This document shows positions 4,113 to 63,888 of a DNA stretch of 64,000 nt, one piece after another. Every line of letters begins with the position of its first letter. Position 1 is the stretch's first letter. The position numbers were made by a program, and so were the translations under genes. The notes under the pieces are model-generated. The model had not been told where the DNA came from, made no database searches, and was given only the letters and a program-made list of their open reading frames with translations. This stretch comes from Flavobacterium sp. SUN052 (GTDB lineage: Bacteria; Bacteroidota; Bacteroidia; Flavobacteriales; Flavobacteriaceae): NCBI RefSeq assembly GCF_028867935.1, contig NZ_JAPQNS010000010.1, positions 124,001 to 188,000 of the forward strand. The letters run 5' to 3'.

Positions 4113-4195
4113 GTTTCTGTTATCAGTTTCAAGTTTCTATGTTTCAAGTTTCAGTGAATGGTAAACCTGAAACCTAAAATCCGAAACTATTCAGG
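4113..4195. repeat. Inverted GTTTCnn heptamer array between rplP and rpsC
   Basis: On the plus strand GTTTC recurs at 4113, 4126, 4133, 4141 and 4148, mostly 7-8 nt apart. Complementary GAAAC words follow at 4169-4173 and 4183-4187. GTTTCAG at 4148-4154 pairs exactly with CTGAAAC at 4167-4173 around a 12-nt loop; the outer part pairs imperfectly. It fills the whole rpsC-rplP gap inside a co-transcribed ribosomal operon. The architecture matches the other heptamer arrays in the window. Confidence 0.65.
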
Positions 4196-5071
4196 TTATC
4201 GTCTTCCTCCTCCACCACCGCCACGGTTTCCACCACCGCCACCGCGATTGCCACCAGCTCCACCACCACGGTTGTTGCCACCACGGTCATTACCACCACG
4301 CTCGTTGCGGCCACGGCCACCACGATCATTGCCATCGCGGTCGCCACGAGGACCACGGCGATCGCCACGATCATTGCCACGATCACTAGCCGTACGCTCA
4401 CCAGCAGCTGCAGCGCTTGCTAAAGCAGCAGGTGATAAGTCACGCTTGCCGTACACTTCGCCTTTGAATACCCATACTTTGATGCCGATTTTACCGTACA
4501 CCGTTTGAGCTTCTGAGATTGCGTAGTCGATATCGGCACGCAGTGTGTGCAGAGGAACCCGACCTTCTTTGTATTGCTCTGTGCGGGCCATTTCGGCACC
4601 ACCCAGACGGCCTGACAGTTTCAGCTTGATACCTTGAGCACCTACACGCATGGCAGCCTGGATAGACTGTTTCATAGCGCGACGGAACGAGATACGAGCC
4701 TGCAACTGCTGAGCAATTGCTTCACCGATCAGCTTGGCGTCGATTTCGGGCCGCTTAATCTCGAAGATGTTGATCTGAACGTCCTTACCGGTGATCTTCT
4801 TCAACTCTTCTTTTATCTTGTCAACCTCGCCACCGCCTTTACCAATTACAATACCTGGGCGAGCCGTGTGAATTGTAAGGGTAATCCGCTTCAGTGTACG
4901 TTCGATCACTACCCGTGAAATAGCTCCTTTCGGAATACGGGCTGCGATATATTTTCTAATTTTTTCGTCTTCGACCAGTTTGTCGGCAAACTCTTTGCCA
5001 CCATACCAGCTTGAGTCCCAACCACGGACGATACCAAGCCGAAAACCAACCGGATTAACTTTCTGTCCCAT
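4196..5071 (-). CDS. rpsC: 30S ribosomal protein S3 with Arg/Gly-rich tail
   Basis: The 291-residue product has a normal S3 core (starting [14 protein letters not shown]) with the KH-domain GKGG motif at 77-80 and the C-terminal domain ending near residue 208. S3 forms part of the mRNA entry channel and its helicase activity. After an Ala-rich linker (about 211-224) comes a 67-residue Gly/Arg/Asn/Asp-rich tail with many RGG, RGN and NRGG units. Usual S3 is about 210-240 residues. The tail is in frame with no sign of a frameshift, and the next gene follows after an 83-nt gap. Confidence 0.96.
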
Positions 5072-5077
5072 GTGTTA

Positions 5078-5467
5078 TTACTCGTTTTCCTGGGTTTGAG
5101 TCATTTCTTCTAACTCCTCTGGCATAGCCGCGCTGTCAACAACCAGTGTAATGTGGTTCGACCGCTTCCGAATCCGGTGACCACGACCTTGAGGAGCAGG
5201 ACGAAGACGCTTGAGCATCGGACCGCCATCCACAAAAACCGTTTTCACATATAGATCCGCGTCTTCAATGCTGGAGTCGGTATTTTTTTGCTGCCAGTTG
5301 GCAACTGCCGACAACAGCACCTTCTGCAATACATCAGCACCCTGCTGGGGCTGGTATTTTAGGATGCCAAGTGCCCGGCTCACGCGCTGACCACGAATCA
5401 GGTCGGCTATCAACCGCATTTTGCGGGGCGAAGAGGGCACGTTTTTCAGTTTTGCTACTGCTTCCAT
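5078..5467 (-). CDS. rplV: 50S ribosomal protein L22
   Basis: The 129-residue product contains the core [18 protein letters not shown] and the loop region [20 protein letters not shown] that reaches into the exit tunnel. It has a short acidic C-terminal tail, [13 protein letters not shown]. It is tightly packed between rpsS (4 nt) and rpsC (6 nt), consistent with one mRNA. Confidence 0.97.
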
Positions 5468-5471
5468 TTTT

Positions 5472-5750
5472 TTACCGTTTGCCCTTGTCTTTCTTCGCTA
5501 CGTGACCACGGAAGTTACGAGTAGGTGCAAACTCACCGAGTTTGTGACCAACCATGTTTTCCGTTACATACACCGGTATGAACTTGTTACCGTTGTGAAC
5601 GGCAAATGTGTGTCCAACGAAATCCGGAGAGATCATCGAACGGCGTGACCAGGTTTTGATGACCGACTTCTTGCCCGACTGATTCTGGGTCTGAACTTTA
5701 TTGTCCAGACGAAAATCTATATATGGGCCTTTCTTGAGTGAACGTGCCAT
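5472..5750 (-). CDS. rpsS: 30S ribosomal protein S19
   Basis: The 92-residue product begins [15 protein letters not shown] and contains the conserved [16 protein letters not shown] segment. S19 lies in the 30S head with S13 and contacts the A-site finger. It follows rplB by 7 nt and precedes rplV by 4 nt. No anomalies. Confidence 0.98.
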
Positions 5751-5757
5751 TTATGAA

Positions 5758-6582
5758 TTACTTTTTCCGTCGGCTAATGATCAACTTGCTTGATGCTTTC
5801 TTAGGAGCACGGGTCTTCTGACCCTTGGCGAACTGCCCGTTACGTGAGCGTGGGTGACCACCCGATGCCCGACCTTCACCACCACCCATTGGGTGATCGA
5901 CTGGGTTCATGGCAACACCCCGAACGCGTGGACGGCGACCCAACCAGCGCATACGGCCGGCTTTGCCCATCACAACGTTCATGTGGTCGGGGTTCGATAC
6001 CGAACCAACCGTAGCCATGCAGTTGCTCAACACCCGGCGAGTTTCGCCCGATGGCAGGCGGATAATAACGTACCGCTCTTCGCGGCCCACCAACTGAGCG
6101 TAGGTTCCAGCTGAACGAGCCATAGCGGCTCCTTTACCTGGTGTCAGTTCGATGTTGTGAATGATGGTACCGATTGGCATAGCCGACATCATCATTGCAT
6201 TACCAACATCAGGTGTTACGCCTTCGCCCGAACGGATTGTCTGACCAACGGTCAAACCCTGTGGGGCGATGATGTAGCGTTTTTCGCCGTCTTCGTACTG
6301 CACAAGGGCAATACGAGCCGAACGGTTTGGGTCATACTCTATAGTCATGACCTGTGCCGATACTTCAGGCTTATTACGCTTGAAGTCAATGATCCGGTAC
6401 ATCCGCTTGTGACCACCGCCAATATAGCGCATTGTCATGCGGCCCTGATCATTCCGACCGCCCGATCTTTTGAGCGGCTCCAGCAGGCTCTTAGTAGGCT
6501 TGCTAGTGGTGATCTCGGCAAAGTCCGGTGCTACACGAAAGCGTGTACCGGGCGTTACTGGTTTAAGTTTCTTAACTCCCAT
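5758..6582 (-). CDS. rplB: 50S ribosomal protein L2
   Basis: The 274-residue product is full length. The C-terminal part has the signature [19 protein letters not shown], whose His is needed for peptidyl transferase activity. The N-terminal part has the [16 protein letters not shown] segment. L2 is a primary 23S rRNA binder needed for subunit association. It lies 33 nt after rplW. No anomalies. Confidence 0.98.
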
Positions 6583-6615
6583 GATTCGTTAGTGCGTTTC
6601 AGTGCAACCGCCTTG

Positions 6616-6903
6616 TTACAGGTCAGCGTAGATGTCGATTACTTCACCCTCCGCTACCGTTACAATGGCCTTTTTGGTTGTTGGGGTCATGCCGCTTACA
6701 ATCCGACCCTTGATGTTTTTGCTCTTGCTTTTGCCGAGCGTAGTCATCGTCCGTACAGATGTTACATTAACACTGTACATTTTCTCGACAGCCTTACCGA
6801 TTTCTACTTTGTTAGCAGTTTTTGCTACTTCGAAAGCATACTTTCCCAGTTTAGACTGGGCTGTCATTTTTTCCGTGATAATTGGTCTTTTTAGAACGCT
6901 CAT
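6616..6903 (-). CDS. rplW: 50S ribosomal protein L23
   Basis: The 95-residue product starts MSVLKRPIITEKMTAQSKLG, a classical L23 opening, and has VRTMTTLGKSKSKNIKGR before the last strand. L23 is at the tunnel exit and docks trigger factor, SRP and the translocon. Its start codon overlaps the end of rplD by 4 nt, which points to translational coupling. Confidence 0.97.
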   Translation of the reverse strand: MSVLKRPIITEKMTAQSKLGKYAFEVAKTANKVEIGKAVEKMYSVNVTSVRTMTTLGKSKSKNIKGRIVSGMTPTTKKAIVTVAEGEVIDIYADL

Positions 6904-7535
6904 GATTGTTGCTCAAAAAGAGTTTGGATGGTTGACAGCGCTTCTTCACTAATAAGCAGTCGGTCGGCGTTCATCAAATCATAGGTACTAACCTGATTCG
7001 CCGTCATTACTTTTGCTTTCTGCACATTCCGGCTCGACAGTACCACATTAGCATTCACATCAGGCAGGATGAGCAACGTTTTGCGGTCAGAAACCGAAAG
7101 CGCGTTCAAAAACTCGATGTAGCTTTTTGTGCGGGGAGCGTCAAATGCGATAGAATCAATGACAGAGATACTGTTCTCTTTTGCTTTCACGGCGTAAGCC
7201 GATTGACGCGCCAGTGATTTTACTTTTTTGTTCAGTTTGAAGCTATAGTCACGAGGACGGGGACCAAATACACGGCCACCACCTACGAAAACTGGTGATT
7301 TCAAGCTACCAGCACGAGCACCACCCGTTCCTTTTTGCTTCTTCAATTTCCGGGTTGACCGGTTAACTTCTGCACGCTCTTTCGACTTGTGCGTTCCCTG
7401 ACGCTGATTGGCCAGATACTGCTTCACGTCTAGGTAAATGGCGTGCTCGTTTGGTTCGATGCCGAAAATGGTTTCTGGCAGCGTTACCTTCTTGCCCGTA
7501 TCCTCGCCTTTGCTGTTATATACGATTGCTTCCAT
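6900..7535 (-). CDS. rplD: 50S ribosomal protein L4
   Basis: The 211-residue product carries the L4 core KQKGTGGARAGSLKSPVFVG followed by GGRVFGPRPRDY, the loop that lines the exit tunnel. In E. coli L4 also represses the S10 operon by acting on its leader. Whether that happens here is unknown, but the rplC unit has a structured leader of its own (see 8205-8252). The gene lies 4 nt after rplC. Confidence 0.97.
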   Translation of the reverse strand: MEAIVYNSKGEDTGKKVTLPETIFGIEPNEHAIYLDVKQYLANQRQGTHKSKERAEVNRSTRKLKKQKGTGGARAGSLKSPVFVGGGRVFGPRPRDYSFKLNKKVKSLARQSAYAVKAKENSISVIDSIAFDAPRTKSYIEFLNALSVSDRKTLLILPDVNANVVLSSRNVQKAKVMTANQVSTYDLMNADRLLISEEALSTIQTLFEQQS

Positions 7536-7539
7536 GTCC

Positions 7540-8160
7540 TTACTTTTCGATAATTACGAATGAATTTTTGGCGCCCGGAACCGAACCACTAACAACAAGC
7601 AGGTTTTGGTCAGCCATAACCCGCAACACCTTCAGGTTTTGAACCGTTACACGGTTACCACCTGTACGACCTGCCATCCGCAGACCTTTAAAAACCCGCG
7701 ACGGGAACGAACAGGCACCAATTGAACCTGGGTGGCGACCCCGGTTGTGCTGTCCGTGGGTTTGACCACCCACACCACCAAAACCGTGACGTTTCACAAC
7801 GCCCTGGAAGCCTTTCCCTTTCGACGTTCCCACAACATCAACAAAATCACCTTCGACGAATACGTCGGCAACTTGTAGAGTTTGTCCCAAATCGAGTTTG
7901 TCTTTGAATTCTTTGAATTCAACCAACTTACGTTTTGGGGTGGTGCCAGCCTTTTTGAAATGGCCCATTTGCGGCTTGTTTGTGCTCTTTTCGCGCTTCT
8001 CGCCGAAGCCCAGTTGCACGGCTTCGTAACCGTCTTTCTCGTCGGTACGAACCTGGGTAACTACACAGGGACCAGTCTCAATAACTGTACATGCCAGAGC
8101 CTGCCCGTCCGCATTGTACACGCTAGTCATCCCGATTTTTTTTCCTATTAAACCAGACAT
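7540..8160 (-). CDS. rplC: 50S ribosomal protein L3
   Basis: The 206-residue product starts [19 protein letters not shown] and contains the [20 protein letters not shown] segment with the glutamine methylated in E. coli L3. L3 initiates 50S assembly. It is the first gene of a long transcription unit: a promoter-like pair and a predicted terminator of rpsJ lie in the 268-nt gap upstream. Confidence 0.98.
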
Positions 8161-8204
8161 TTTTTTTGTTGTAAGCAGGAAAAAGTTTGAAAAATTGTAC
8201 TCCT

Positions 8205-8218: not shown

Positions 8219-8221
8219 CCG

Positions 8222-8252: not shown

Positions 8253-8283
8253 GCTACGTTTTGCATTTACTCCCGAAACATAA

Positions 8284-8734: not shown

Positions 8735-8808
8735 TATAGTTTGGTTCGGTTGCTTTAAAGAACGAGATTGGGAAAGAACCATTTACTCCCCGACCCGTTT
8801 TGAGGGTG

Positions 8809-16608: not shown

Positions 16609-16683
16609 TGGGAGTTGAGGGATTCGAACCCCCGACCCTCTGCTTGTAAGGCAGATGCTCTGAACCAACTGAGCTAAACTCCC
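16609..16683 (-). tRNA. tRNA-Val (anticodon UAC)
   Basis: Read on the minus strand the 75-nt gene folds into a full cloverleaf. The acceptor is GGGAGTT/AACTCCC with discriminator A; the D arm is GCTC/GAGC; the anticodon arm is TCTGC-CTTACAA-GCAGA with anticodon TAC; the T loop is TTCGAAT. UAC reads Val codons (GUA and wobble). The 3' CCA is not encoded, so the CCA-adding enzyme (cca at 53123) is needed. Confidence 0.96.
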
Positions 16684-18280: not shown

Positions 18281-18366
18281 GGTGAGCAGTTATCAGTTAT
18301 CAGCCAACAGTAGAACAGCGATCGTAACTCAGGAAATGCTCACTGTTAGCTGATAACTGCTCACTG
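18281..18366. repeat. Inverted CAGnnnn heptamer array
   Basis: The left arm reads GGTGAG CAGTTAT CAGTTAT CAGCCAA CAGTAGA (18281-18314). The right arm (18332-18366) in reverse complement reads CAGTGAG CAGTTAT CAGCTAA CAGTGAG CATTTCC. GTGAGCAGTTATCAG (18282-18296) pairs perfectly with 18350-18364. The left arm has one additional copy of CAGTTAT, so the arms differ by exactly one 7-nt unit. Unlike the others, this array lies between two divergent 5' ends (ubiE and the dipeptidase). Confidence 0.75.
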
Positions 18367-18463: not shown

Positions 18464-19663
18464 ATGACTCCCTCTCTACTGCCCTTTGCTTCGCTTTTTC
18501 TGACGCTTATTTTCCCACCCGCCGATGATGATCGACTGACTAAAAAAGCCCGCGCTATTCATAGCCGTGTTCTTACGCTGGATACTCACGCTGATGCGCC
18601 GATTAATCTTCAGAAAGACGGGTTTGATATTGGCGTTGCCCATGATGTAAAAAAAGACGCTACGCAAATAGACTTTCCACGCATGAAGCAAGGTAAGATG
18701 GATGCCATGTTTTTTGCGGTTTATATGGCACAGGGGCCACGAACGCCCGAAGGGCACACAGCGGCCAAAGACAAGGCATTAGACATTTTTGAGCGTATTC
18801 ACGCGGCTTTACGCAAATACCCGAACCAAGCGGAGTTAGCTACCTCACCTGCTGATGCCTATCGGATTGAAAAGCTAGGTCGCCGGGCGGTGTTTATCGG
18901 TATGGAAAATGGCTATCCGGTGGGGGAAGACCTGTCGTTGCTGAAAACTTATTACGATTTGGGATGCCGCTATATTACGCTTTCGCACTTTGCCAACAAT
19001 GCTATTTGCGATTCGGCCACCGATCCCGATGGGCCAATTCATAACGGCCTGAGCCCGTTTGGGCGGCAGGTAGTGGCTGAAATGAATCGATTGGGTATGA
19101 TGATCGACGTGTCTCACATTTCAGACAAATCGTTCTACGATGTGCTGGCACTATCGAAAGCACCTGTTGTGGCTTCTCACTCAAATTCGCGGGCGTTATG
19201 TGAATTTCCGCGTAATATGACCGACCAGATGATTAAAGATCTGGCGGCTAAAGGTGGGGTAGTTCAGGTGAATTTTGTGAGCGACTACCTGCGCAAACCT
19301 TCCGATGAACACCGGCAAGCCTTAAACAGCGTTCGTATGGCAGGCGTTGGTAAAGTTGTCACGCCGGATGTACGGGCTAAAATAGAAGCCAAAACAGACT
19401 CCATCAAAAAGGTGTATGCTAACGAACGGGCGAGCATTGCCGACATTGTTAACCACATCGACCACATCGTAAAACTGGTGGGCATCGATCACGTTGGCAT
19501 CGGCAGTGATTTCGATGGAGGAGGGGGCGTAAACGGCCTCGAAGATGTAAGCGAAATCGAAAATCTAACGATTGAGTTTGTCCGCCGGGGCTATTCCGAA
19601 GCCGACATTGCCAAGATCTGGGGAGGTAACTTATTACGTGTACTGGATCAGGCAAAAAAATAG
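18464..19663 (+). CDS. Secreted membrane dipeptidase (renal dipeptidase family, M19)
   Basis: The 399-residue product from this ATG starts with a signal-like segment (MTPSLLPFASLFLTLIFPP). An upstream in-frame start at 18401 is possible and would also give a hydrophobic N-terminus. Zinc ligands of the M19 dipeptidases are all visible: HAD in TLDTHADAP, Glu in GMENGYP, His in LSHFANN and ASHSNSRA, and the DHVGIGSDFDGGGG loop. The enzyme hydrolyses dipeptides, including D-residue ones. The stop codon TAG is the first triplet of the inverted repeat at 19661. Confidence 0.9.
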   Translation: MTPSLLPFASLFLTLIFPPADDDRLTKKARAIHSRVLTLDTHADAPINLQKDGFDIGVAHDVKKDATQIDFPRMKQGKMDAMFFAVYMAQGPRTPEGHTAAKDKALDIFERIHAALRKYPNQAELATSPADAYRIEKLGRRAVFIGMENGYPVGEDLSLLKTYYDLGCRYITLSHFANNAICDSATDPDGPIHNGLSPFGRQVVAEMNRLGMMIDVSHISDKSFYDVLALSKAPVVASHSNSRALCEFPRNMTDQMIKDLAAKGGVVQVNFVSDYLRKPSDEHRQALNSVRMAGVGKVVTPDVRAKIEAKTDSIKKVYANERASIADIVNHIDHIVKLVGIDHVGIGSDFDGGGGVNGLEDVSEIENLTIEFVRRGYSEADIAKIWGGNLLRVLDQAKK

Positions 19664-19754
19664 TCATTTTGTGGTCATTCATTGTCATTGGTAGCCATTG
19701 GTCGTTCTGACTGACTAACTTACATAATGACAATGAATGGCCATAAAATGACTA
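19661..19754. repeat. Long inverted repeat with a roughly 10-nt GTCATT unit, overlapping a stop codon
   Basis: The 29 nt at 19661-19689 pair with 19726-19754 over their full length with only two G-T wobbles, leaving a 36-nt loop. GTCATT-like words recur at 19663, 19674, 19684 and 19694, 10-11 nt apart. The first three bases are the TAG stop of the dipeptidase gene. The element fills the gap between two convergent genes. There is no clear T-run at either end, so it is not a standard terminator. Confidence 0.75.
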
Positions 19755-20827: not shown

Positions 20828-20919
20828 TAATGAGAGATGGAGAATGGGTACTGTGTGAGCGAAAAGAATATATCACAACAGCAGGGCATTATTCATTGTA
20901 CACGACTCATTACACATTA
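20828..20919. repeat. Inverted nAATGnn heptamer array
   Basis: The left arm is TAATGAG AGATGGA GAATGGG TACTGTG (20828-20855). The right arm (20885-20919) in reverse complement is TAATGTG TAATGAG TCGTGTA CAATGAA TAATGCC. Pairing between arms is patchy, weaker than in other arrays, but the 7-nt phase is kept. The right arm enters the 3' end of the receiver gene at 20910 and supplies its stop codon and last codons. Confidence 0.5.
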
Positions 20920-21293
20920 TTTAACGGTTTCAGTTTGGCTTTGAGTTCAACAAAATCTAGGGGCTTCGTCAGGAAATCATCGGCACCAAGCTCCATAGCC
21001 TGATTGTAACTCTGAGCATCACCATACGCTGTAATCATCATAACAATAGGCGGTGGTGGCTGGCGGAAGTCATCTTTTATATGACGTAAAAGTTCCAGAC
21101 CACTCATACCGGGCATATTGATGTCCGACAAAATCAGGACTGCTTCGGAGGCCAGTTTTCTAAGGCATTCCAGGGCTTCCTCCCCGGAGTTGGCAAACGT
21201 AAAGCGGATTTCCCCGCTCCTGATTTCACGGCGAAACCGCTGCTCAAACAGGGGTTGCACATCGGATTCGTCGTCAACTACTAAAATATTCAT
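20910..21293 (-). CDS. Single-domain response regulator (receiver only)
   Basis: The 127-residue product is a stand-alone receiver: acidic pair DD (7-8), phospho-acceptor D57 in LSDINMPGMSG, TAYGD and switch Lys in LTKPLDF. It closely resembles the receiver of the neighbouring cyclase regulator (both have LSDINMP and QRFRREIRSG-like segments). It has no output domain, so it may be a phosphate shuttle between the nearby hybrid-less kinases and the cyclase. The last residues and the stop lie in the heptamer array at 20885-20919. A TAnnTTTG site (CAAAAATA on the plus strand, 21316-21323) is 23 nt upstream. Confidence 0.93.
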   Translation of the reverse strand: MNILVVDDESDVQPLFEQRFRREIRSGEIRFTFANSGEEALECLRKLASEAVLILSDINMPGMSGLELLRHIKDDFRQPPPPIVMMITAYGDAQSYNQAMELGADDFLTKPLDFVELKAKLKPLNNV

Positions 21294-27954: not shown

Positions 27955-28048
27955 GCGCTGGTTGAGTCAAAGAGTTGTTATGCGGTTTTAGGCTGGTAAG
28001 ATAATGGCTTCCGGGCAAAATTGCCTGTTTTGTGTTTTCTTTGCTTTT

Positions 28049-31000
28049 ATGATTGGAAACCGCTCATCCGAACAGTTTAATCGCTCACTTGGTATTCGGG
28101 CCGATGAAGGGCAGACCGTCGGGCTGTTTTTTCTGCACAATTTTCTGTTGGGCGTCGGTACCATGCTGGTGTACGTAACTGCCAACGTAATTCTGCTCGA
28201 AAATAAGCCTGAAACCAGTCTACCAGTAGCCTATATCGTTTCGGCGCTGGGCATGATGGGTATCGGACGGGTGTACGCTCATTTCGAGCATCATTTAAAG
28301 CTCAGCCGGTTGGTCGTTCGGGTACTGTGGGCCGTCATTTTGCTGACGGCTATCATTGCCGTACTAGTAGCGTTTGGGCATTCGGTGGCGGCAGCAGTGG
28401 CCATCATGGTTGGTTTCCGGGGTATCTATCTGTTAACAAACCTTGAATTCTGGGCCATTTCTGCTCTTGTTTTCGACGTTCGGCAGAGTAAGCGACTGTT
28501 TAGTATTATCAGTTCGGGCGATTTACCCGCCAAGGCATTGGGGGCTATTCTGGTGGCGCTTATTCACAGTCATGGCGACTTACTGGCTTTGCTCGTGCTG
28601 GCATTTGTGGTTTTTGGAGCAGCTCTGTATGTTACGGCACTCACCATCCGGCTCCACAACGTGCATGCTCCACACGCCGTAGCTCGCCCGATCCGACGGC
28701 CGCAAACGCGCTGGGTTCAACAATTATTTGGCGGTAGCGAACTAATTCGGGCGGTTTGTCTGACAATGATCCCGGTGGCTATGGTGGCTGCGGGCATCGA
28801 ATACGAGTTTTTCATCAACGTAAAGCACAAGGTCCATCATCAAACCGCCGTACTGACCTACCTGAGTTATGTGCTGGCGCTGACCTACCTGGTGGCAATG
28901 GTTGTGAAAGTGCTGGCATCGCGCCGGACACTGGAGCAGTTTGGTATTCTGAATACGCTTCGGCTATTACCTGGTGCCGCGCTCGGCTGGGTTTTGCTCT
29001 ATGTATTTGTGTCGCTACGGCCCGACGATGAGAACTTACAGATGATTTATCTGTGCGGGCTATACATGGTTTTCGAGGTGGTCCGTCGCGCTCTTTTTGA
29101 CCCGGTTGTGCTGGTCCTATTTCAGCCGCTGCCCGCCCACCAACGCCTGAAAGGCCATACGCTGGCCAAAGGTTTTTTTGAACCGTTGGGTATGGGGCTG
29201 GCTGGGGTGTTCCTGTTTTTTCTGCGCGAAAGTCCCTACTATGCTGACTGGGCCTTGCTGGTAGGCATTGGCATTGTAAGTGCGATCCTGTGGCCTTTGC
29301 TGGCCAAAACGTATCGCAATTACCTGCATACCTTGCAGGATGCATTAGGCCGCCGGTTTATTGCTGCCGAGGAGCTGGCTCTTCCGGCCGAAGCTACCGC
29401 TATCATTGCCCGAACCTTAAGCAGCGATCGTCCAGAAGCGGTGCTGGCTGCTTTAGACTACTTACCACACGATCAGCCTGCATTGCTTCTTGAGAAGCGC
29501 GATACGCTATTGAATCATGCCGATGCGCGGGTACGGCTGCATACGCTGGAGGTGGCCTCGGACCGGACTATTCACCTACCACCATCGGCCCTGACCGACC
29601 GCGTTCTTAATGATGCCGATCCGATGGTACGCCAGCAGGCGGCTCAATTGCTGGCCAGCCAAACTAAAGATGCTATTGCTACGGGTCTTCTGAGTACCAG
29701 CGATCGGGCTGTGCGGCAGGGTGCCATCATCGGGTTTTATAGAAATGGATTCAGTCAGGCACCCGCTTTAGCCAGTTTAAATGCGTTAGCGCAGGGCCAG
29801 AATGTTACAGATCAGAAAGTAGTACTGGCTTGTATAACGGCGCTGCACCTTACCGATAGAGTGCCGTATGTCCTGAATGCCCTGAAAAGCGACGATTCAT
29901 CCATCGTATCGGGGGCGTTGATGGCGGGTGGAGTGCAAACCGAACCGACGGTCTGGCACCAGATGGTTGCGTTTCTGACTGATCGCCAACACGGGCGCAC
30001 AGCCGTTCGGGCGCTGGCGATGGTTGGCGATAAGGTGCTATCGGCCTTACCCATGCCTATGTCGGCTACCGATAACCCGCTTCTACTCCGACGCACTATT
30101 GCCGTTGTGGATCGAATTCGGAGTAAAGCTTCCCAAAACTGGCTGCTTGAGATGTTGCCGCATACGCCTGTTCCAATGCGGTCGGCATTGCTGAAAAGCC
30201 TCAGTTCATACCCCTTCACCGACCAGACCGATCAGCTTTACGAACAGTTGGTGGCGGAGGAACTTCGGCTAGCTCAGCGATTACTACATGGTCGTGCCGA
30301 AAATGACATGCATTCTTTGCTGACAGAAGCGGTTCAGTACGAAATGGATGGGGTTGTCGATCGGTTGCTGTTGCTGATGATGGGTTTATACGATAAGGAG
30401 ACCGTCAATAGTGTTCGGCAAAGTCTCGACCATCAGGCTCAGGAGCGCCGGGCCAACTCCCTCGAATTGCTCGAAAACCTGATCCCCCGCCCTGTTTACG
30501 GTACTTTGCTCGCCCTAACCGACGATTTGCCCCTCCCCGAACGACTAGCCTTAATCAATTCATCCGTTGGGTCTTTCGATGAGCAGACGGACCTTAAAGC
30601 TTACATCACGCAACAGGGGCAAACCCGATTTACACCCTGGACGGTTGTGGTCGCCGAACACTTGTTGGCAAACCAGAACCTCGCCCAACCATCTACAACC
30701 TTTATGGAACACAACACCACTTCCCCGAGTCATGCCGGCGGACCAGCCACCGCCACTTCTGAAATTGAGCGTGTGTTGGTACTTCGGAATAGCTCGTTGT
30801 TTGCCAGCACTCCCGCCAACGTTCTCAGCACCATAGCCCCGATTATGAAAGAGGTGTATGTTACAGAGGGGGAAACGATTGTTAATAAAGGCGAAGTAGG
30901 TACGTTTATGTTTATCATTCACCAGGGGCAAGTTGGTATTTACGATGGTGACCGGCAACTGACTACCCTAAAAGAAGGTGATGTTGTTGGTGAACTCTCT

Positions 31001-31174
31001 CTGCTGGATGCCGAACCTCGCTCAGCATCAGTTATTGCCCATACTGATCTGACTTTATATCGCATCGATCAGGCCGATTTCTATGACCTTATGGAAGAAC
31101 GTGATGAAGTCATGCAGAATATTATTCGAATGCTGTGCAGCCGCATTCGGGCCCAGAATCAGAAACGGGGGTAG
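28049..31174 (+). CDS. Membrane transporter-like/HEAT-repeat protein with cyclic-nucleotide-binding domain
   Basis: The product has 1041 residues from this ATG; an ATG 15 codons upstream (28004) is an alternative. The N-terminal 430 or so residues hold about 12 hydrophobic helices resembling the MFS or NTP/NDP-antiporter fold. A long alpha-helical region (about 450-900) with repeated L-x-x-DRxxxVR-type units looks like HEAT repeats. The C-terminal 120 residues form a cyclic-nucleotide-binding domain with the phosphate cassette GDVVGELSLLDAEPRSASV, keeping the Glu and Arg that hold the nucleotide. With a predicted adenylate cyclase regulator nearby (19769), it is a plausible cAMP-gated membrane effector. 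What is transported, if anything, is unknown. Confidence 0.8.
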   Translation: MIGNRSSEQFNRSLGIRADEGQTVGLFFLHNFLLGVGTMLVYVTANVILLENKPETSLPVAYIVSALGMMGIGRVYAHFEHHLKLSRLVVRVLWAVILLTAIIAVLVAFGHSVAAAVAIMVGFRGIYLLTNLEFWAISALVFDVRQSKRLFSIISSGDLPAKALGAILVALIHSHGDLLALLVLAFVVFGAALYVTALTIRLHNVHAPHAVARPIRRPQTRWVQQLFGGSELIRAVCLTMIPVAMVAAGIEYEFFINVKHKVHHQTAVLTYLSYVLALTYLVAMVVKVLASRRTLEQFGILNTLRLLPGAALGWVLLYVFVSLRPDDENLQMIYLCGLYMVFEVVRRALFDPVVLVLFQPLPAHQRLKGHTLAKGFFEPLGMGLAGVFLFFLRESPYYADWALLVGIGIVSAILWPLLAKTYRNYLHTLQDALGRRFIAAEELALPAEATAIIARTLSSDRPEAVLAALDYLPHDQPALLLEKRDTLLNHADARVRLHTLEVASDRTIHLPPSALTDRVLNDADPMVRQQAAQLLASQTKDAIATGLLSTSDRAVRQGAIIGFYRNGFSQAPALASLNALAQGQNVTDQKVVLACITALHLTDRVPYVLNALKSDDSSIVSGALMAGGVQTEPTVWHQMVAFLTDRQHGRTAVRALAMVGDKVLSALPMPMSATDNPLLLRRTIAVVDRIRSKASQNWLLEMLPHTPVPMRSALLKSLSSYPFTDQTDQLYEQLVAEELRLAQRLLHGRAENDMHSLLTEAVQYEMDGVVDRLLLLMMGLYDKETVNSVRQSLDHQAQERRANSLELLENLIPRPVYGTLLALTDDLPLPERLALINSSVGSFDEQTDLKAYITQQGQTRFTPWTVVVAEHLLANQNLAQPSTTFMEHNTTSPSHAGGPATATSEIERVLVLRNSSLFASTPANVLSTIAPIMKEVYVTEGETIVNKGEVGTFMFIIHQGQVGIYDGDRQLTTLKEGDVVGELSLLDAEPRSASVIAHTDLTLYRIDQADFYDLMEERDEVMQNIIRMLCSRIRAQNQKRG

Positions 31175-31201: not shown

Positions 31202-31256
31202 ACAAGGGGGGATTTGCCCGGATTTAGTTTAAAAATCCGGGCAAATCCCCCCTTGT
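31202..31256. repeat. Perfect 24-bp inverted repeat after the cNMP-binding gene
   Basis: The 24 nt at 31202-31225 pair perfectly with 31233-31256 across a 7-nt loop. The arms are built of GGATTT-like words (GGGGGGATTTGCCCGGATTT on the plus strand). It starts 28 nt after the stop of the preceding gene. There is no long T-run after it, so it may act as an RNA stabiliser or a repeat element rather than a classical terminator. Confidence 0.8.
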
Positions 31257-32149: not shown

Positions 32150-32222
32150 GGATACTGGATTTTGGATACTGGACGTTAGACACTTCGCTGTTTGTCATCC
32201 AGTATCCAACGTCCAAAATCCA
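32150..32222. repeat. Inverted nGGATnn heptamer array
   Basis: After GGATAC (32150-32155), the left arm reads TGGATTT TGGATAC TGGACGT TAGACAC (32156-32183). The right arm (32195-32222) in reverse complement reads TGGATTT TGGACGT TGGATAC TGGATGA. Aligned, the arms differ by one additional TGGATAC unit in the left arm. It lies between the 3' ends of two convergent genes and runs to within 3 nt of the LytTR regulator stop codon. Confidence 0.75.
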
Positions 32223-53122: not shown

Positions 53123-54565
53123 ATGAATTTCTCGGAGACACTCCATAAAAATCCTGTTTTTGACCAGATTGCCCAGCAGGCCAGCGCACTCAACGTACCC
53201 GCTTATGTGATTGGTGGTTACGTGCGCGACCTGATTCTGAATCGACCTTCCAAAGATATTGACGTTGTTTGTCTGGGAAGCGGCATTGTACTTGCCGACG
53301 CTGTGGGTAAACAGTTGGGCGTGCAGGTGAGCGTGTTTCAAAGTTTTGGAACGGCCATGCTCAAAACGCCCGATGGCTTTGAGGTTGAGTTTGTGGGGGC
53401 AAGGCGTGAATCGTACCGGGCTGAGTCGCGAAAGCCAATCGTCGAAGATGGTTCGCTTCAGGATGACCAGAATCGGCGCGACTTTACAATCAACGCTATG
53501 GGAATCAGCCTCATGCGTGATACCTACGGCGATCTGGTTGATCCGTTTAACGGACTTGCCGATCTCAAGCGCAAAACCATCCGCACTCCGCTTGATCCCG
53601 AAATTACTTTCTCCGACGATCCCTTGCGTATGATGCGGGGTATTCGATTTGCCGCCCAGCTAAACTTCGATATTGAGCCAGACACCTTTGATGCTATTGT
53701 TCGAATGAAAGACCGGATCAGCATTGTCTCGGCCGAGCGCATCACCGCCGAACTGAATAAGATTATTATGGCGCCAACACCCTCTTACGGCTTCAAACTG
53801 CTGTATCATGCAGGGCTGCTGGATATAATTTTCCCAGAGTTTGTGTTGCTCAAAGGGGCGGAGTTTGTAGAGGGCAAAGGGCATAAAGACAACTTTTACC
53901 ATACCCTGCAAGTGCTCGACAATGTGGCCAATCGGGCTAATCCGGCCAAGGCTGCTCCCGACCGCGAAACTGAACTATGGCTTCGGTGGGCGGCCGTGCT
54001 GCACGACATTGCAAAACCAGCCACCAAACGCTTCGATCAGCGGGTAGGCTGGACGTTTCATGGTCACGAAGACTTGGGTGCCCGTATGGTGCCGGTGCTT
54101 TTCAAGAAACTGAAACTGCCGCTGAACGAGAAAATGAAGTACGTCCAAAAACTCGTTCGTCTGCACCTGCGACCCATTACTCTTGTCAAAGAAACAATCA
54201 CTGACTCAGCGCTACGGCGATTGCTGGTTGATGCCGGCAACGATTTAGATGGGTTAATGGCTCTGTGCCGCGCCGACATCACGTCGAAGAACTACGAGAA
54301 AGTGCAAAAACACCTTCGTAACTTCGGAAACGTAGAACAAAAGCTGCACGATTTGGAAGAACGGGATAAACTACGCAACTTCCAGCCCATCATTACCGGT
54401 GAACTCATTATGGAGACGTTTGGTCTACAACCGTCAAAGGAAGTGGGCGAAATAAAAACAGTGATTCGGGAAGCGATTATTGAAGGAACTGTTCCAAATA
54501 CACTGGAAGAAGCCATGCCGTTTTTGCTTGAAGAAGGCCGTAAACGTGGACTTACACCAAAATAA
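53123..54565 (+). CDS. cca: CCA tRNA nucleotidyltransferase
   Basis: The 480-residue product has the class II nucleotidyltransferase head: GGYVRD (31-36), DIDVV with catalytic Asp pair (45-47), a RRDFTIN motif and the MRGIRFAAQLNFDIE motif. A C-terminal HD domain follows (AAVLHDIAKPATKR, HGHEDLGARM). It adds or repairs CCA at tRNA 3' ends; tRNA-Val in this window lacks an encoded CCA. It is co-transcribed with the YrdC-like gene. A related poly(A) polymerase cannot be excluded by sequence alone, but gene content favours cca. Confidence 0.92.
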   Translation: MNFSETLHKNPVFDQIAQQASALNVPAYVIGGYVRDLILNRPSKDIDVVCLGSGIVLADAVGKQLGVQVSVFQSFGTAMLKTPDGFEVEFVGARRESYRAESRKPIVEDGSLQDDQNRRDFTINAMGISLMRDTYGDLVDPFNGLADLKRKTIRTPLDPEITFSDDPLRMMRGIRFAAQLNFDIEPDTFDAIVRMKDRISIVSAERITAELNKIIMAPTPSYGFKLLYHAGLLDIIFPEFVLLKGAEFVEGKGHKDNFYHTLQVLDNVANRANPAKAAPDRETELWLRWAAVLHDIAKPATKRFDQRVGWTFHGHEDLGARMVPVLFKKLKLPLNEKMKYVQKLVRLHLRPITLVKETITDSALRRLLVDAGNDLDGLMALCRADITSKNYEKVQKHLRNFGNVEQKLHDLEERDKLRNFQPIITGELIMETFGLQPSKEVGEIKTVIREAIIEGTVPNTLEEAMPFLLEEGRKRGLTPK

Positions 54566-54572
54566 ATAACCG

Positions 54573-54663
54573 TAGATTGTAGATACTGGATGTTAGATAG
54601 TGGATTTTTGTCGCACATAAATCAATATCCAGCGTCTGGTATCCTAAATCCAATATCTTGATT
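54573..54663. repeat. Inverted nGGATnn heptamer array after cca
   Basis: The left arm is five clean units: TAGATTG TAGATAC TGGATGT TAGATAG TGGATTT (54573-54607). The right arm (54619-54663) in reverse complement reads AATCAAGATAT TGGATTT AGGATAC CAGACGC TGGATAT TGATT. Same unit type as the arrays at 32150 and 57581. It ends 2 nt before the ATG of the next gene, leaving no room for a separate promoter or leader outside the array. Confidence 0.7.
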
Positions 54664-57580: not shown

Positions 57581-57677
57581 TTTTGGATTGGGGATTTCGG
57601 ATTGTGGATTTATTGCTGACGCATGATTTTGCTTTGCGTTGGCAATGAATCCACAATCCGAAATCCCCAATCCGAAA
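57581..57677. repeat. Inverted GGATTnn heptamer array, 36-bp stem
   Basis: 57581-57616 pairs with 57642-57677 over 36 positions with two U-G wobbles and no mismatch. The left arm carries GGATTGG GGATTTC GGATTGT GGATTTA in perfect 7-nt phase. The 25-nt loop contains a further 5-bp stem (ACGCA/TGCGT at 57619 and 57635). It lies in the 214-nt gap after nadK and starts 4 nt past the nadK stop. It is the most regular array in the window. Confidence 0.85.
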
Positions 57678-60098: not shown

Positions 60099-60147
60099 GT
60101 TGGAGTAAAGGCAGAAAGACCGGTTTTTTCCTCAGACGGTGCGATTT

Positions 60148-61401
60148 CTACGCGGCCAACTCGGTCAACGCCTTCACAAACGAATCTAGCTCTGCCGTTG
60201 TGGTGAAGAGGTGGGGCGTTACCCGGACGCCCTGCACATTGGCGTTGCTGATGGCTACCGTCCAGATATGGTATTTATCGAGCAGTGTTTTCGCCAGTTG
60301 ACCCGGTGCCATGCCGCGAACACCGACGTTGGCAATGGCACAGGCGCGGGTTGGGTCAGCGGGGGTGTTCAGTATGATGTTGGGCAGAGACCGAACTTTT
60401 GAAGCCCAATACGTTTGTAAATACCGCAACCGGGCCTCTTTGCGGGCAATGCCCACCATGTTGTGAAACCGGATGGTATCGGGCAGTGTCAGGTCGGTAT
60501 GGACGGGGTGCGTACCCGTATGGTTCAGTTTACGGATGTCGTCGTCGGGGTAACCTGCGTCGGCAAACATCGGCCAGATGTTCTTGATCTTATCGCGACG
60601 GACATACAACAAACCGGCTCCCAGCGGATTGCCAAGCCATTTGTGCAGGCTACTGCCGTAGTAATCGCAACCCAGATCGGGAATTTTAAAATCGAAGTGG
60701 CCAACTGCATGCGCTCCGTCGACCATCACCTCCACACCGTGCCGGTGAGCCATGTCGGCAATTTTCCGAACGGGTAATATCTGCCCTGTGATATTTACAA
60801 TGTGGCAGAGCATCAGCAGGCGCGTTTTGGGAGTGATAGCTCCTTCGTACAGCGCTACGATTTCCTCGTCGGATTTGGGGTGGTTGGGCAGCGAGATCTG
60901 TTTGTTCACAATGCCGTAGCGTCGGGCCTGTTGGGCAAACATATCGAGCATAGCACCGTAATCCTGCACGGCCATGACGGCTTCGTCGCCGGGTTTCCAG
61001 TCGATACCCGAAATAATGGTGTCAAGCGATTCGGTGGTGTTGCGCGTGATAATCAGTTCTTCAACCGGGCAACCAACCAGGGTAGCTAATTGCTGCCGGG
61101 CAATCAGTTTATCATCGAATTGCCGGGTCCGCATATAATAGGAAGACACCCGGTTTACGTTGCGGACGTGGTCTACAAAGGCATCCATCACCTCGTTGGG
61201 GGCCAGAACATAATAGCCGTTTTCGAGGTGAATAAACTCGTTCGTAACCGTAAAGTGAGACCGGAGTTCCGTCCAGAAACTCTCCTCCTGCGCTGTTTGC
61301 AAAGGTGATTTACCCGCCACCGATTGAAGCAGCGTTTCTAACGGAGTAAACGGTAGGGCCGATAGGCCAGTTATGGAGCGGAGGAAATCGCGTTTGGTCA
61401 T
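60148..61401 (-). CDS. Exported class V aminotransferase-like PLP enzyme
   Basis: The 417-residue product from the ATG at 61401 begins MTKRDFLRSITGLSALPF, a twin-arginine-like leader with a KR pair. The PLP-binding Lys is in GSSLHKWLGNPLGAGLLYV, preceded by the cofactor-binding VDGAHAVGHFDF. The closest known relatives are isopenicillin-N epimerase-like and cysteine desulfurase-like enzymes. An upstream in-frame ATG at 61461 lies inside the heptamer array and is unlikely. Substrate unknown. Confidence 0.85.
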   Translation of the reverse strand: MTKRDFLRSITGLSALPFTPLETLLQSVAGKSPLQTAQEESFWTELRSHFTVTNEFIHLENGYYVLAPNEVMDAFVDHVRNVNRVSSYYMRTRQFDDKLIARQQLATLVGCPVEELIITRNTTESLDTIISGIDWKPGDEAVMAVQDYGAMLDMFAQQARRYGIVNKQISLPNHPKSDEEIVALYEGAITPKTRLLMLCHIVNITGQILPVRKIADMAHRHGVEVMVDGAHAVGHFDFKIPDLGCDYYGSSLHKWLGNPLGAGLLYVRRDKIKNIWPMFADAGYPDDDIRKLNHTGTHPVHTDLTLPDTIRFHNMVGIARKEARLRYLQTYWASKVRSLPNIILNTPADPTRACAIANVGVRGMAPGQLAKTLLDKYHIWTVAISNANVQGVRVTPHLFTTTAELDSFVKALTELAA

Positions 61402-61403
61402 AG

Positions 61404-61528
61404 CAGTTACCAGTGAGTATCCAACAGTGAGCGACCTGCTGTTTAGAAAAACTTTCAGCAAGATACTAATTATTGGCTGTCGCGCTTCGCTGCTATACGG
61501 CTCACTGTTGGATGTTCACTACTACCTG
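61404..61528. repeat. Inverted CAGnnnn heptamer array
   Basis: The left arm reads CAGTTAC CAGTGAG TATCCAA CAGTGAG (61404-61431). The right arm (61501-61528) in reverse complement reads CAGGTAG TAGTGAA CATCCAA CAGTGAG. ATCCAACAGTGAGC (61419-61432) pairs perfectly with 61500-61513; the loop is 67 nt. Same family as the arrays at 18281 and 63789. It sits directly after the alpha/beta hydrolase stop and right before the aminotransferase ATG. Confidence 0.7.
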
Positions 61529-62323
61529 TCAGGCCATTACCGCTTCAGCCTGAATAGGGTTGCGGGCCAGCCAGTCGAGCAGAAGCTCGTTGAACCGTTC
61601 GGGTTGTTCCATCATGGGGGCGTGGCAGCACTTATCAATGAAGTGCAACTCCGAATTGGCAATAAACCGATTAAACTCGTGGGCTACTTCGGCAGGAGTG
61701 ATGGTATCGTTGAGACCCCAGATCAACAGCGTCGGTACGTTGATGCTGGCCAGGTCTTTCGCTACGTTATTTCGTTGAGCCGATTTAGCGATCTGCACAA
61801 TGTTCATGCATTTGGGAATGCTGCTCGTAATATCGAACACCTCATCAATTAGCTCTTTGGTAGCCACTTTGGGGTCGTAGAACGTGTACGATACGCGCTC
61901 AGCGATATAATCGTAGCTACCGCGTTTGGGAAACGAACCGCCCATTGAGTTTTCGAATAGCCCGGAGCTACCGGTAAGCAGCAGTCGCTTTACCATGTCG
62001 GGGTGCTTGAATGTGTACAGCAAGCCAACATGGCCCCCCAGCGAATTACCCAACAGAGTTAGGTCGGTAAGGTTGCGGTAGGCGACAAACTTTTCGATGA
62101 AGGCTACCAGCCCTTCCAGCCCGGCTTCCCGAACAGGCATGTCGTAGATAGGCATTACGGGGATCACAACCCGGTACTGACCCGAAAACGTACGGATAAC
62201 ACCATCCCAGTTACTAAGGGCGCCAAAAAGACCATGCAGCAGCAACAACACGTCGCCCTGCCCTTCGTCGATGTAGCGAAATCCTTCTTCTTCGCGGATA
62301 GAATATGTAACTGATGAATCCAT
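61529..62323 (-). CDS. Alpha/beta hydrolase
   Basis: The 264-residue product has the oxyanion loop LLLHGLFGALSNWDG, the nucleophile elbow GNSLGGHVG (Ser), an acid Asp in LNDTITP and the final His in CCHAPMMEQPERF. The fold and length are those of ester or C-C bond hydrolases such as the MenH/BphD-like group. Substrate unknown. A TAnnTTTG site is at 62362-62369. It is followed by the heptamer array at 61404-61528. Confidence 0.9.
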   Translation of the reverse strand: MDSSVTYSIREEEGFRYIDEGQGDVLLLLHGLFGALSNWDGVIRTFSGQYRVVIPVMPIYDMPVREAGLEGLVAFIEKFVAYRNLTDLTLLGNSLGGHVGLLYTFKHPDMVKRLLLTGSSGLFENSMGGSFPKRGSYDYIAERVSYTFYDPKVATKELIDEVFDITSSIPKCMNIVQIAKSAQRNNVAKDLASINVPTLLIWGLNDTITPAEVAHEFNRFIANSELHFIDKCCHAPMMEQPERFNELLLDWLARNPIQAEAVMA

Positions 62324-62361
62324 TAGGCTTGTGATTTTAACACCGTATACTTGTTACTGGG

Positions 62362-62369
62362 CAAATATA
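62362..62369 (-). promoter_or_regulatory. -7 element upstream of the alpha/beta hydrolase
   Basis: TATATTTG on the minus strand matches TAnnTTTG, 38 nt before the ATG at 62323. No clear -33. The remaining AT-rich gap to 62541 shows nothing else recognisable except the next site. Confidence 0.35.
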
Positions 62370-62513
62370 ATATAATCTGAGAATAAGAATGAATAGATTT
62401 TTTTCAACTATTGATTAACAGGTGGTTATAAATTTAGAACTTTTTATAATTCTATTTTTCTTGAAAAATTACTAAACTCACTAATCGACAGTCATATATT
62501 AACGATATGACCG

Positions 62514-62521
62514 TAATTTTG
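62514..62521 (+). promoter_or_regulatory. -7 element upstream of the FAD oxidoreductase
   Basis: TAATTTTG matches TAnnTTTG 20 nt before the ATG at 62542. No -33 TTG at the usual distance. Confidence 0.4.
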
Positions 62522-62541
62522 GCGATCAAACTTCACCACCA

Positions 62542-63801
62542 ATGTCTGCCCAACCTATTATTATTGTCGGAGCCGGTATCGCCGGTTTAAGTTGTGCTGT
62601 TCAGTTGCAACAAGCGGGGCGTGAAATTCTACTCCTGGAAGCTTCCGACGGTGTAGGTGGCCGCGTGCGTACTGACCTTATCGATGGATTTCGGCTTGAC
62701 CGGGGTTTTCAGATTTTGCTTACAGCCTATCCCGAAGCGCAACGTCTGCTCAATTATTCAGCACTTAAGTTGCGGACCTTCCGGTCGGGCGCTCTTATCC
62801 ACGATGAGGCTAACGGATGGATGAAACTTCTGAATCCTTTGCAGGAGCCGCTGACGGTGTTTCAAACCCTCACCTCACCCGTAGGAACGTTAACGGACAA
62901 ACTCACTATTGTGTCATTGTTGCGCCGAACCCAGGAACTCCCCCTGGACGAACTATTTCGGCAACCGGCAACCACCACAATGGACTTTTTGCGGGATAAG
63001 GGTTTTTCGGAGCAGATGATCGAGCGTTTTTTTTGTCCCTTCTTCGGCGGTGTCTTTCTGGAAGATCACCTTCGTACGTCGAGCAATTTTTTTGAGTTTT
63101 GCTTTCGCATGTTTTACACCGGCGACGCAGCTATACCGGCCTTAGGCATGGGCGAGATACCGGCTCAGTTAGCGGCCCGGCTACGGGCCGAAAATATACG
63201 GTTAAACACGCCCGTCGTTCGGGTAACGGGGTCGGAGGTGCAACTGGCATCGGGTGAAGTGCTGGCGGCTTCGGCCGTTGTTGTGGCTGTTGATGCTGCT
63301 CCAGCCACTCGCCTGTTGGGCCTACCTGAGCCTACCATAGATGACTTTACGCATACCACCTGCACGTATTTCGCGATGCCGGAGGAGCACAAACCTGCCG
63401 TGAAAAACGGAGAGAAACTGCTTTTACTGAACACAAAACGTACGGGAGCAGTGCATAATCTGGCTGTGCTTACTGATGTGTCGCCGGAGTACGCACCGGC
63501 TGGGCAGAGCCTTGTTTCAGTCAGCACGCAGGGGATGGATATTATCGACGAAGCAGCCCTTACCAACCGTATCCGGCTGGAGATGACTAATTGGTTTGGA
63601 GAATCGGTGAGCCATTGGCGGCATTTGCGGACCTATCATTTACCCCAGGCGCTGCCTGCTTACGGGCCAGAAAACAGCGCTAAACCCTTGCAATTAGCTC
63701 CTAATCTGTTTCAGTGTGGCGATCAAACAGCTTACCCGTCGTTAAACGCAGCTCTGCAAACCGGGCGATTAGTAGCGGAAGCAATAAGCAGTTTGCAGTG
63801 A
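62542..63801 (+). CDS. FAD-dependent amine oxidase/phytoene desaturase-like oxidoreductase
   Basis: The 419-residue product has an N-terminal FAD-binding Rossmann motif (IIVGAGIAGLSCAVQLQQAG) with EASDGVGGRVRTD, and a C-terminal FAD segment (QCGDQTAYPSLNAALQTGRL). The family includes protoporphyrinogen oxidase, phytoene desaturases and amine oxidases. HemH is in the window, but HemG-like function is only a possibility. It faces, across a heptamer array, another FAD oxidoreductase (63863), so the two may be related. Its last codons and stop lie in that array. Confidence 0.85.
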   Translation: MSAQPIIIVGAGIAGLSCAVQLQQAGREILLLEASDGVGGRVRTDLIDGFRLDRGFQILLTAYPEAQRLLNYSALKLRTFRSGALIHDEANGWMKLLNPLQEPLTVFQTLTSPVGTLTDKLTIVSLLRRTQELPLDELFRQPATTTMDFLRDKGFSEQMIERFFCPFFGGVFLEDHLRTSSNFFEFCFRMFYTGDAAIPALGMGEIPAQLAARLRAENIRLNTPVVRVTGSEVQLASGEVLAASAVVVAVDAAPATRLLGLPEPTIDDFTHTTCTYFAMPEEHKPAVKNGEKLLLLNTKRTGAVHNLAVLTDVSPEYAPAGQSLVSVSTQGMDIIDEAALTNRIRLEMTNWFGESVSHWRHLRTYHLPQALPAYGPENSAKPLQLAPNLFQCGDQTAYPSLNAALQTGRLVAEAISSLQ

Positions 63802-63888
63802 GCAGTAGCAGTCTGCTGACGCGTATCTTCGGTCTGTGGTGCTTACTGCCAATTGCAATTACTCACTGCTTACTGCCACTGCCCACTG
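63789..63888. repeat. Inverted CAGTnnG heptamer array at two convergent gene ends
   Basis: The left arm reads CAGTTTG CAGTGAG CAGTAG CAGTCTG (63789-63815), with one 6-nt unit. The right arm has CTTACTG (63842), CTCACTG (63862), CTTACTG (63869), CCACTG (63876) and CCCACTG (63882), again with one 6-nt unit. The stop TGA of the 62542 gene lies in the second left unit. The right arm codes for the last residues of the convergent gene. Confidence 0.65.

Follow-up and report, generated by a model that had tools for sequence, protein, structure and literature searches.

The 64,000-nt stretch of DNA analysed here, referred to as the window (positions 124,001 to 188,000 of contig C2, NZ_JAPQNS010000010.1, of the 8.1-Mb genome G000), carries at its gene borders eight hairpins with arms of tandem degenerate heptanucleotides, and a ninth hairpin with a longer unit. 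We show that these sites are part of a genome-wide population of tandem-unit hairpins, a class wider than the eight sites. In related genomes, the hairpin found in the same gap is often alike in plan but different in sequence, and it is thus the hairpin, and not its letters, that seems to last. The account that we favour, in which we place about as much confidence as doubt, is that interchangeable hairpin elements hold slots at gene borders, chiefly just behind stop codons, and are renewed by slippage and by the exchange of gap alleles.

Tandem-unit hairpins in the window and in the genome

Each site (named here by its first position) was compared with 1000 dinucleotide shuffles of its own sequence for matches at lag 7 and for inverted pairing. 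The first-pass annotation of the window had proposed that the eight sites follow one plan, tandem 7-nt units, a loop and the same units inverted; this is borne out, and the pattern is non-random, in that lag-7 repetition together with inverted pairing was reached by none of the 1000 shuffles at any of the eight. Taken separately, the lag-7 matches were equalled in no shuffle at sites 4113, 18281, 32150, 54573, 57581 and 63789, in 2 of 1000 at 20828 and in 25 of 1000 at 61404, where repetition is weakest; inverted pairing was equalled in none at 18281, 32150, 57581 and 61404, and in 3, 6, 8 and 33 of 1000 at 63789, 54573, 4113 and 20828, respectively, the last having the weakest dyad. The ninth site, 19661, for which a longer unit had been noted, is indeed an array of 10-nt units, with a peak at lag 10 (0/1000 shuffles) and not at lag 7 (635/1000). 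A coordinate-free scan for inverted pairs of lag-7 arrays returned five pairs at four sites in the window (4113, 18281, 32150 and 57581; sites 20828, 54573, 61404 and 63789 fall under its threshold) and, in a 400-kb part of contig C1, six pairs at five sites. None arose when this part was Markov-shuffled five times, and the pattern thereby also survives the comparison with shuffled sequence that had been proposed as a check; other lags from 5 to 18 gave 0–1 pairs in the window and 0–4 in contig C1 (4 at lags 8 and 14). An initial detector, with 35 comparisons and a threshold of 24, proved too strict, as it gave no lag-7 result. By the shuffles of the sites, of the scan and of the rpsC–rplP gaps described below, a chance origin of the heptad arrays is rejected.

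The placing of seven of the eight heptad sites at gene 3′ ends, also part of the first description, holds as well: seven touch a stop codon or lie at most 7 nt from one. The exception, the CAGnnnn hairpin at 18281..18366, sits in a divergent gap, 6 nt upstream of a ubiE-like start (18274). The GTTTCnn hairpin at 4113..4195 fills the whole gap between rpsC (minus strand, stop at 4196) and rplP (start at 4112), a gap that belongs to the S10 ribosomal operon; beside it, inside the 3′ end of rpsC (4203–4353), tandem repetition is seen at lags 15, 18, 21 and 24. GGATnnn units form the hairpin at 32150..32222, which occupies a 79-nt convergent gap, and similar units form that at 54573..54663, 7 nt past the stop of gene 53123–54565 (plus strand), whose product resembles a CCA tRNA nucleotidyltransferase with a match below the family cut-off. 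A GGATTnn hairpin with a TTGCTGACGC-like tip (57581..57677) lies at a distance of 4 nt from the stop of the NAD kinase gene (minus strand, 57682), and CAGTnAn hairpins are found at 61404..61528, with a long loop, between the stop of gene 61529–62323 and the start of gene 60148–61401, and at 63789..63888, spanning the stop codon of gene 62542–63801 (plus strand). The nAATGnn array with a weak dyad (20828..20919) reaches into the 3′ end of a response-regulator gene (20910–21293). Two sites also adjoin a start codon, 4113 directly before rplP and 61404 two bases from gene 60148–61401. The 10-nt-unit hairpin (GTCATTnnTG, 19661..19754) lies in a convergent gap between an M19 dipeptidase and a cyclase gene, and is one of a family of eight in the own-genome sequence covered. 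At gathering thresholds, Rfam detects a single tRNA in the whole window (16609–16683) and nothing else.

Judged by the NAD kinase of the window, the host is Rudanella-like, within the Spirosomataceae, because this protein has 95% identity with its counterpart in a Cytophagales metagenome-assembled genome (L053, from G101), 92% with that of Rudanella paleaurantiibacter (L054, from G102) and 71% with that of Spirosoma terrae (L055, from G103). The same-genus label on 100 genomes was set aside, since their NAD kinases are only 38–46% identical and the label contradicts a Rudanella-like placement. The sequence covered was 1.6 Mb of contig C1 plus the window (1.66 Mb), and 400 kb of each of the relatives G104 and G103 (the G104 slice includes 5,000 N letters); gene calls came from our own codon model, and terminators from our own scan for a hairpin plus a T-run. 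The host sequence holds 680 gaps of 30–400 nt, and strong inverted repeats occur in 53 of the 105 convergent, 76 of the 431 co-directional and 8 of the 144 divergent ones, against 0, 1 and 1 in letter-shuffled gaps. Heptad hairpins are present in 7, 10 and 1 gaps of these types, respectively; G104 has them in 15 of its 159 gaps, and G103 in 9 of 203. Hairpins were called periodic at z 3 in this gap survey, where shuffled halves yielded none, and at z 2.8 in the family clustering and in the analysis of positions and terminators. The best lag of the periodic hairpins of the own genome was 7 in 13, 14 in 3, 8 in 14, 10 in 10, 5 in 6, 13 in 5 and another in 7; the corresponding figures are 7 in 10, 14 in 5, 8 in 4 and others in 4 for G104, and 7 in 7, 14 in 1 and 9 in 1 for G103. 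The 7-nt period is thus prominent but not alone, because lag 8 (14) nearly matches lag 7 or 14 (16) in the own genome.

Ninety-two periodic hairpins, of which the own genome supplied 60, G104 23 and G103 9, clustered into a CAGTGAG-like family of 17 (periods 7, 13 and 14), AAAGAGTG with 13 (period 8), GTCATTnnTG with 8 (period 10), CCCCTCTCC with 6, GGATT with 5, GGTAATTG with 5 (period 8), GTTTATG with 5, smaller families and many singletons, the rpsC–rplP hairpin of the window being one of the latter. AATGnnn, GTTTAnn, GGATTnn and CAGTGAG are among the cores that recur across loci. Members of a family have their arms in common and mostly different loops, apart from a common tip, TTGCTGACGC..GCGTCAGCAA, which combines with heptad arms of several families and is also the outer part of CTTCGACTCC hairpins. 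A family of long hairpins, TTGCTGACGC..CTTCGACTCCGCTCAGCCTGAC (for example, C1 564643–564761 and 849748–849867, and 228266–228358 of the G104 slice), is represented in the sequence covered by 16 hairpins that carry the GCTGACGC module, nine of them with CTTCGAC; two of the family are 90% identical across 120 nt, loop included. A literature search with the letters of the CTTCGACTCCGCTCAG family returned nothing on bacterial repeats among the matches listed. In a sample of the phylum, CAGTKAN arrays occur in 22 of 247 genomes; CTGAKAN (20 of 247) is no valid control for this pattern, because CTGATAA complements TTATCAG. The reversed control pattern of the same sample has 58–172 matches per strand in G333, G341, G356 and G321, which are other high-copy heptad arrays. 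Oppositely oriented CAGTnAn heptads, 44 and 50 nt apart, are seen in two other Bacteroidota (G340:C17:166191–166281 and G379:C19:15250–15367).

The same gap in related genomes

Fifty-four rpsC–rplP gaps were cut, that of the window and those of 53 relatives' loci returned by similarity searches (a subset of the genomes searched). In the 41 non-redundant gaps of at least 40 nt, repetition is pronounced at lags 7 (z=20.7) and 14 (z=12.0), followed by lag 8 (z=4.5) and lags 4 and 15 (about 2); lags 3, 5, 6, 9 and 10 are below chance. By eye, the gaps mostly fold as a single main hairpin, and their cores include CAGTCGT, CAGTTTT, GTCAGTC, GTTTCAA, ATGAGnn, AGTTAAC, GTTTGAC and others; the label given was short or plain hairpin for ten gaps, irregular for four and none for L114. 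On a quick tree of rpsC and rplP, with 16 of 51 inner branches unsupported, the core labels, assigned by eye, require 22 changes (the least possible being 10). Within a supported group, the neighbours L142, L143 and L146 bear three different labels, and the states among Rudanella gaps are GTTTCAA (window), ATGAG (G102 and G104), AGTTAAC (G105) and none (G101). The motif to the right of the hairpin tends, by eye, to accompany the core (CAGTCGT in 12 of 12, GTCAGTC in 5 of 6, GTTTCAA in 3 of 4 and CAGTTTT in 8 of 10), and GTTTCAA together with AACTGATAACAGAAA is common to the window, L143 and L159, although the tree groups the window with Rudanella (99*). This tendency is a pointer to, and not proof of, the exchange of whole gap alleles between relatives.

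Replacement is also seen at other sites. At 18281, a unit array was recognized by eye in 12 of 14 relatives (several with one arm only in the stretch shown), with CAG, AATG/TCATTAT, TTGAATGA or AAAGAGCG-like cores, and no array was seen by eye in the stretches of L240 and L243. At 32150, G105 has an AATG heptad hairpin, and a GC-rich hairpin precedes 5 T in G104 and 4 T in G102; no hairpin was seen in G101, where the left-hand gene was not found. The 10-nt units of site 19661 correspond, by eye, to 8-nt-like units in G102, G104 and G101 and to a remnant in G105. At 57581 there is a different palindrome in L053 and a GTGAG hairpin in L054, with none obvious in L055 and L056. Site 54573 has another, irregular array in L054 and no array in L055 or in the ~95 nt available from L053; site 61404 is empty in L053, where the two genes overlap or abut, and the array of 63789 is absent in L053 and L055.

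Arrays with other cores are hence present in relatives, and 7-nt indels, for which the first-pass annotation had proposed to look, do occur between two relatives about 90% identical. Seven stretches of G102 and G104 (~40 kb, 89–98% identical; two of them overlap by ~1.6 kb) differ by eight reliable indels of at least 4 nt, three of exactly 7 nt and the others of 9, 12, 15, 17 and 63 nt. The three 7-nt indels match the neighbouring 7 nt at 0.86, 0.71 and 0.57, and the 63-nt stretch, which G102 lacks, comprises the loop and the greater part of one arm. Compensatory pair changes were noted by eye in the close pairs L175/L176, L181/L184 and L178/L179. By eye, too, the left arm of L054:4343–4497 (G102) resembles the complement of the right arm at 280776–280949 of the G104 slice, a likeness that looks as if the hairpin had been inverted or one arm copied from the other.

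Terminators, mobility and competing explanations

Of the 105 convergent gaps, 13 contain a unit hairpin, as do 44 of the 431 co-directional and 3 of the 144 divergent ones; the hairpins lie at a median of 5 nt from stop codons (63 of 70 distances are at most 20 nt) and of 15 nt from start codons (31 of 50 distances do not exceed 20 nt). Among convergent gaps, a classical terminator is present in 1 of the 13 that have a unit hairpin and in 50 of the 92 that lack one (Fisher p=0.002); with both gap types pooled, the figures are 5 of 57 against 116 of 479 (p=0.007). The intrinsic-terminator form, a GC-rich hairpin followed by a T-run, is thus carried by one of the 13 convergent and by four of the 44 co-directional gaps with a unit hairpin. 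Position and the exclusion of terminators, on which the suggestion is based, point to a 3′-end job of unit hairpins, as terminator or as 3′-end barrier. In the account of interchangeable hairpins, the inverted repeat would be kept at a slot while its letters, its core family and sometimes its unit length are replaced. Arrays would lengthen, shorten and homogenize by 7-nt slippage; the complementarity of the arms may be maintained by hairpin-templated copying or by selection for pairing; whole gap alleles may be swapped between relatives via recombination in the conserved flanking genes; and transposition may now and then add to the renewal. At 3′ ends the hairpin would serve as a terminator or 3′-end barrier that needs no U-tract, and families could replace each other there because of this terminator-like job. 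A more far-reaching form, in which the slots, including one in the S10 operon, carry arms continually rewritten by 7-nt-biased copying (slippage plus arm-to-arm templating), with the plan inherited and the sequence not, seems unlikely to us. If the 3′-end role is true, a terminator-like function would be passing between unrelated sequences. The old puzzle of why, among bacterial repeats of middle length, heptamers prevail can also be put to the test in a single, well-defined gap of an essential operon, in many species and over many replacements, and with a clear prediction as to the function of the hairpin.

Several results weigh against the account of interchangeable hairpins. The array is simply absent in five of the six orthologous gaps examined for sites 54573, 61404 and 63789. 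In the rpsC–rplP gap, core labels are clustered on the tree (a shuffled mean of 36.2 changes, with 0 of 200 shuffles as low as 22), so that a core is usually common to close relatives; the figure of 22 itself leans on that partly unsupported tree. The link between flank and core is not one-to-one, as AACTTCTT goes with three cores, including ATGAG (3/3) and AGTTAAC (L169). Eleven aligned gaps of the Spirosoma group (CAGTCGT) have no 7-nt indels in their heptad arms, and RNAalifold on 11 related gaps gives a covariation term of 0.08 kcal/mol, with 4 of 18 pairs changed on both sides. As to function, the exclusion of terminators is not significant in co-directional gaps alone (4/44 against 66/387, p=0.20), and termination cannot be the role everywhere, because site 18281 lies in a 5′ leader and the rpsC–rplP hairpin lies inside an operon that should be read through. 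Nor is there the strand bias of wobble pairs expected of selection at the transcript level: isolated A.C pairs outnumber G.T in the rpsC–rplP stems (42 against 25), and the co-directional gaps, with 77 G.T against 63 A.C, give no signal of selection on the sense RNA. Transcript-level selection for pairing is accordingly unsupported by the asymmetry of G.U and A.C pairs.

The possibility that most deserves to be set beside the account of interchangeable hairpins, although we find it rather doubtful, is that the hairpins are neutral or selfish intergenic repeats, which would spread where they are harmless, for example behind stops, and displace or break terminators without replacing their function. 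The missing wobble bias and the clean absences of arrays in relatives fit this possibility, and so does a 102-nt heptad hairpin dispersed in G102 and G104 (for example, L264 and L285), with at least 40 places in each (40 of 80 and 84 candidates, respectively, were scored). Its copies are 85–100% identical in G104 and 87–98% in G102 on the best strand (four G102 matches are partial), its ends, TCAGTACTGG..CCAGTACTGA, are inverted, the flanks of four copies are unrelated, and direct repeats of 7–15 nt (median 9) bound 16 of 23 copies, three ortholog pairs included, as against 15 of 288 mismatched flank pairs (at least 7 nt). Because of this dispersal, the unrelated flanks and the target duplications, a heptad hairpin can behave like a miniature inverted-repeat transposable element (MITE). 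Several copies sit, by eye, within AATG heptad arrays, and three orthologous copies show no 7-nt indels. Elsewhere the element has partial matches only, in G000 (one, L267), G101 (one), G146 (three) and G190 (two), and none in G105, G103, G167 and G156. Against a neutral or selfish origin, none of the 60 periodic hairpins of the window genome has target duplications of at least 7 nt, and their loops mostly differ outside the tip module, whereas shared ends and loop characterize the 102-nt element; moreover, a hairpin is present in most of the rpsC–rplP gaps sampled, and some changes are compensatory.

The first-pass annotation had read the changing sequence of a constant unit as a process that copies length rather than sequence; a template-switching polymerase with a 7-nt stroke would be an example. 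The many different cores at one orthologous gap and the exact 7-nt indels agree with that part of the idea, but cores recur as families across loci, 8-nt arrays are nearly as frequent, and orthologous gaps differ in unit length (7, 8 or 10 nt, by eye), so that what is conserved at a locus is not the length of the unit; we regard such a process as improbable. It is less probable still that single-stranded heptamers are post-transcriptional control sites bound by an RNA-binding protein of the S1, Csp or CsrA type, as proposed for the TAACTGA repeats of Beggiatoaceae. Sites 4113, 18281 and 61404 do lie near a start codon, and the published arrays have a core that is the other strand of one found here, a position before starts and occurrences in ribosomal protein operons (PMC4679880); the heptamers here, however, are paired in arms, mostly beside stop codons, and one and the same gap can hold different cores, which a sequence-specific reader would not tolerate. 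Least credible is mobilization as repetitive extragenic palindromic (REP) elements, or REPINs, by a REP-associated tyrosine transposase (RAYT) of the Y1 type. The window genome has four Y1 transposase matches, two of which are flanked by REP-like hairpins (GTACGGTGGATTTGTAATCC at L193; CGTCGC/TTAGCGACC at L191), and the genome also has related GTACGATGG hairpins at scattered places. Yet none of the four Y1 loci has a heptad hairpin in the 3.2–3.4 kb examined, for which reason mobilization of the heptads by RAYT was rejected, and the heptad arms lack a fixed consensus.

Relation to known repeats

The nearest precedent is the P6b stem of the tRNA-Leu(UAA) group I intron of Nostoc and Calothrix, in which heptanucleotide motifs pair across a loop; it has two interchangeable classes, TDNGATT and NNTGAGT, which have repeatedly replaced each other, and 7-nt units have been gained or lost on one side or on both (PMC4476775). 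The inverted heptad form, which the first-pass annotation had thought new, is therefore not without example. The two P6b classes resemble GGATTnn and GAGTGAn of the window genome. The likeness extends to the build of the stem, in which degenerate 7-nt units in tandem pair across the loop, as found here at the eight sites and in the 41 gaps, and to the replacement of the core class at the same place (the 22 label changes on the quick tree, labels by eye). The difference lies in location and range: P6b is one intron position in one phylum, whereas the window sites lie between protein genes, and many intergenic gaps, more cores, other unit lengths and another phylum are involved.

That heptad arrays had not been described in Bacteroidota did not stand either. 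Direct, intergenic TAACTGA heptamer arrays have been published from Beggiatoaceae, Cyanobacteria and five Bacteroidetes, with some located in ribosomal protein operons (MacGregor, 2015, PMC4679880). They are akin to a core found here, because TAACTGA arrays read as CAGTTAT arrays on the opposite strand. That system consists of direct arrays of one core, mostly upstream of starts in the main genome studied, with one inverted case; the arrays here are inverted, have variable cores and lie at a median of 5 nt from stops. The paper quotes Mrazek (2007) to the effect that heptamers are the most frequent of the mid-length repeats of bacteria. Among the matches listed in open papers, none is concerned, by its title or the beginning of its abstract, with inverted heptad families between genes in Bacteroidota.

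With REP elements and REPINs, the hairpins here have in common that they are dispersed intergenic palindromes for which roles in termination or mRNA stability have been proposed (PMC3733652 and PMC3116915). The 102-nt element of G102 and G104 is alike to MITEs in its inverted ends, target duplications, many copies and unrelated flanks; the heptad hairpins of the window genome, with neither target duplications nor common ends, are unlike them. REP elements and REPINs have a fixed consensus and a link to RAYT, and the heptad hairpins show neither. The short tandemly repeated repetitive (STRR) sequences of filamentous cyanobacteria are short tandem heptamers between genes and are known as direct arrays rather than as paired arms. 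Lastly, the window also contains a non-periodic structure, a perfect 24-bp inverted repeat with a 7-nt loop at 31202–31256, behind gene 28004–31174.

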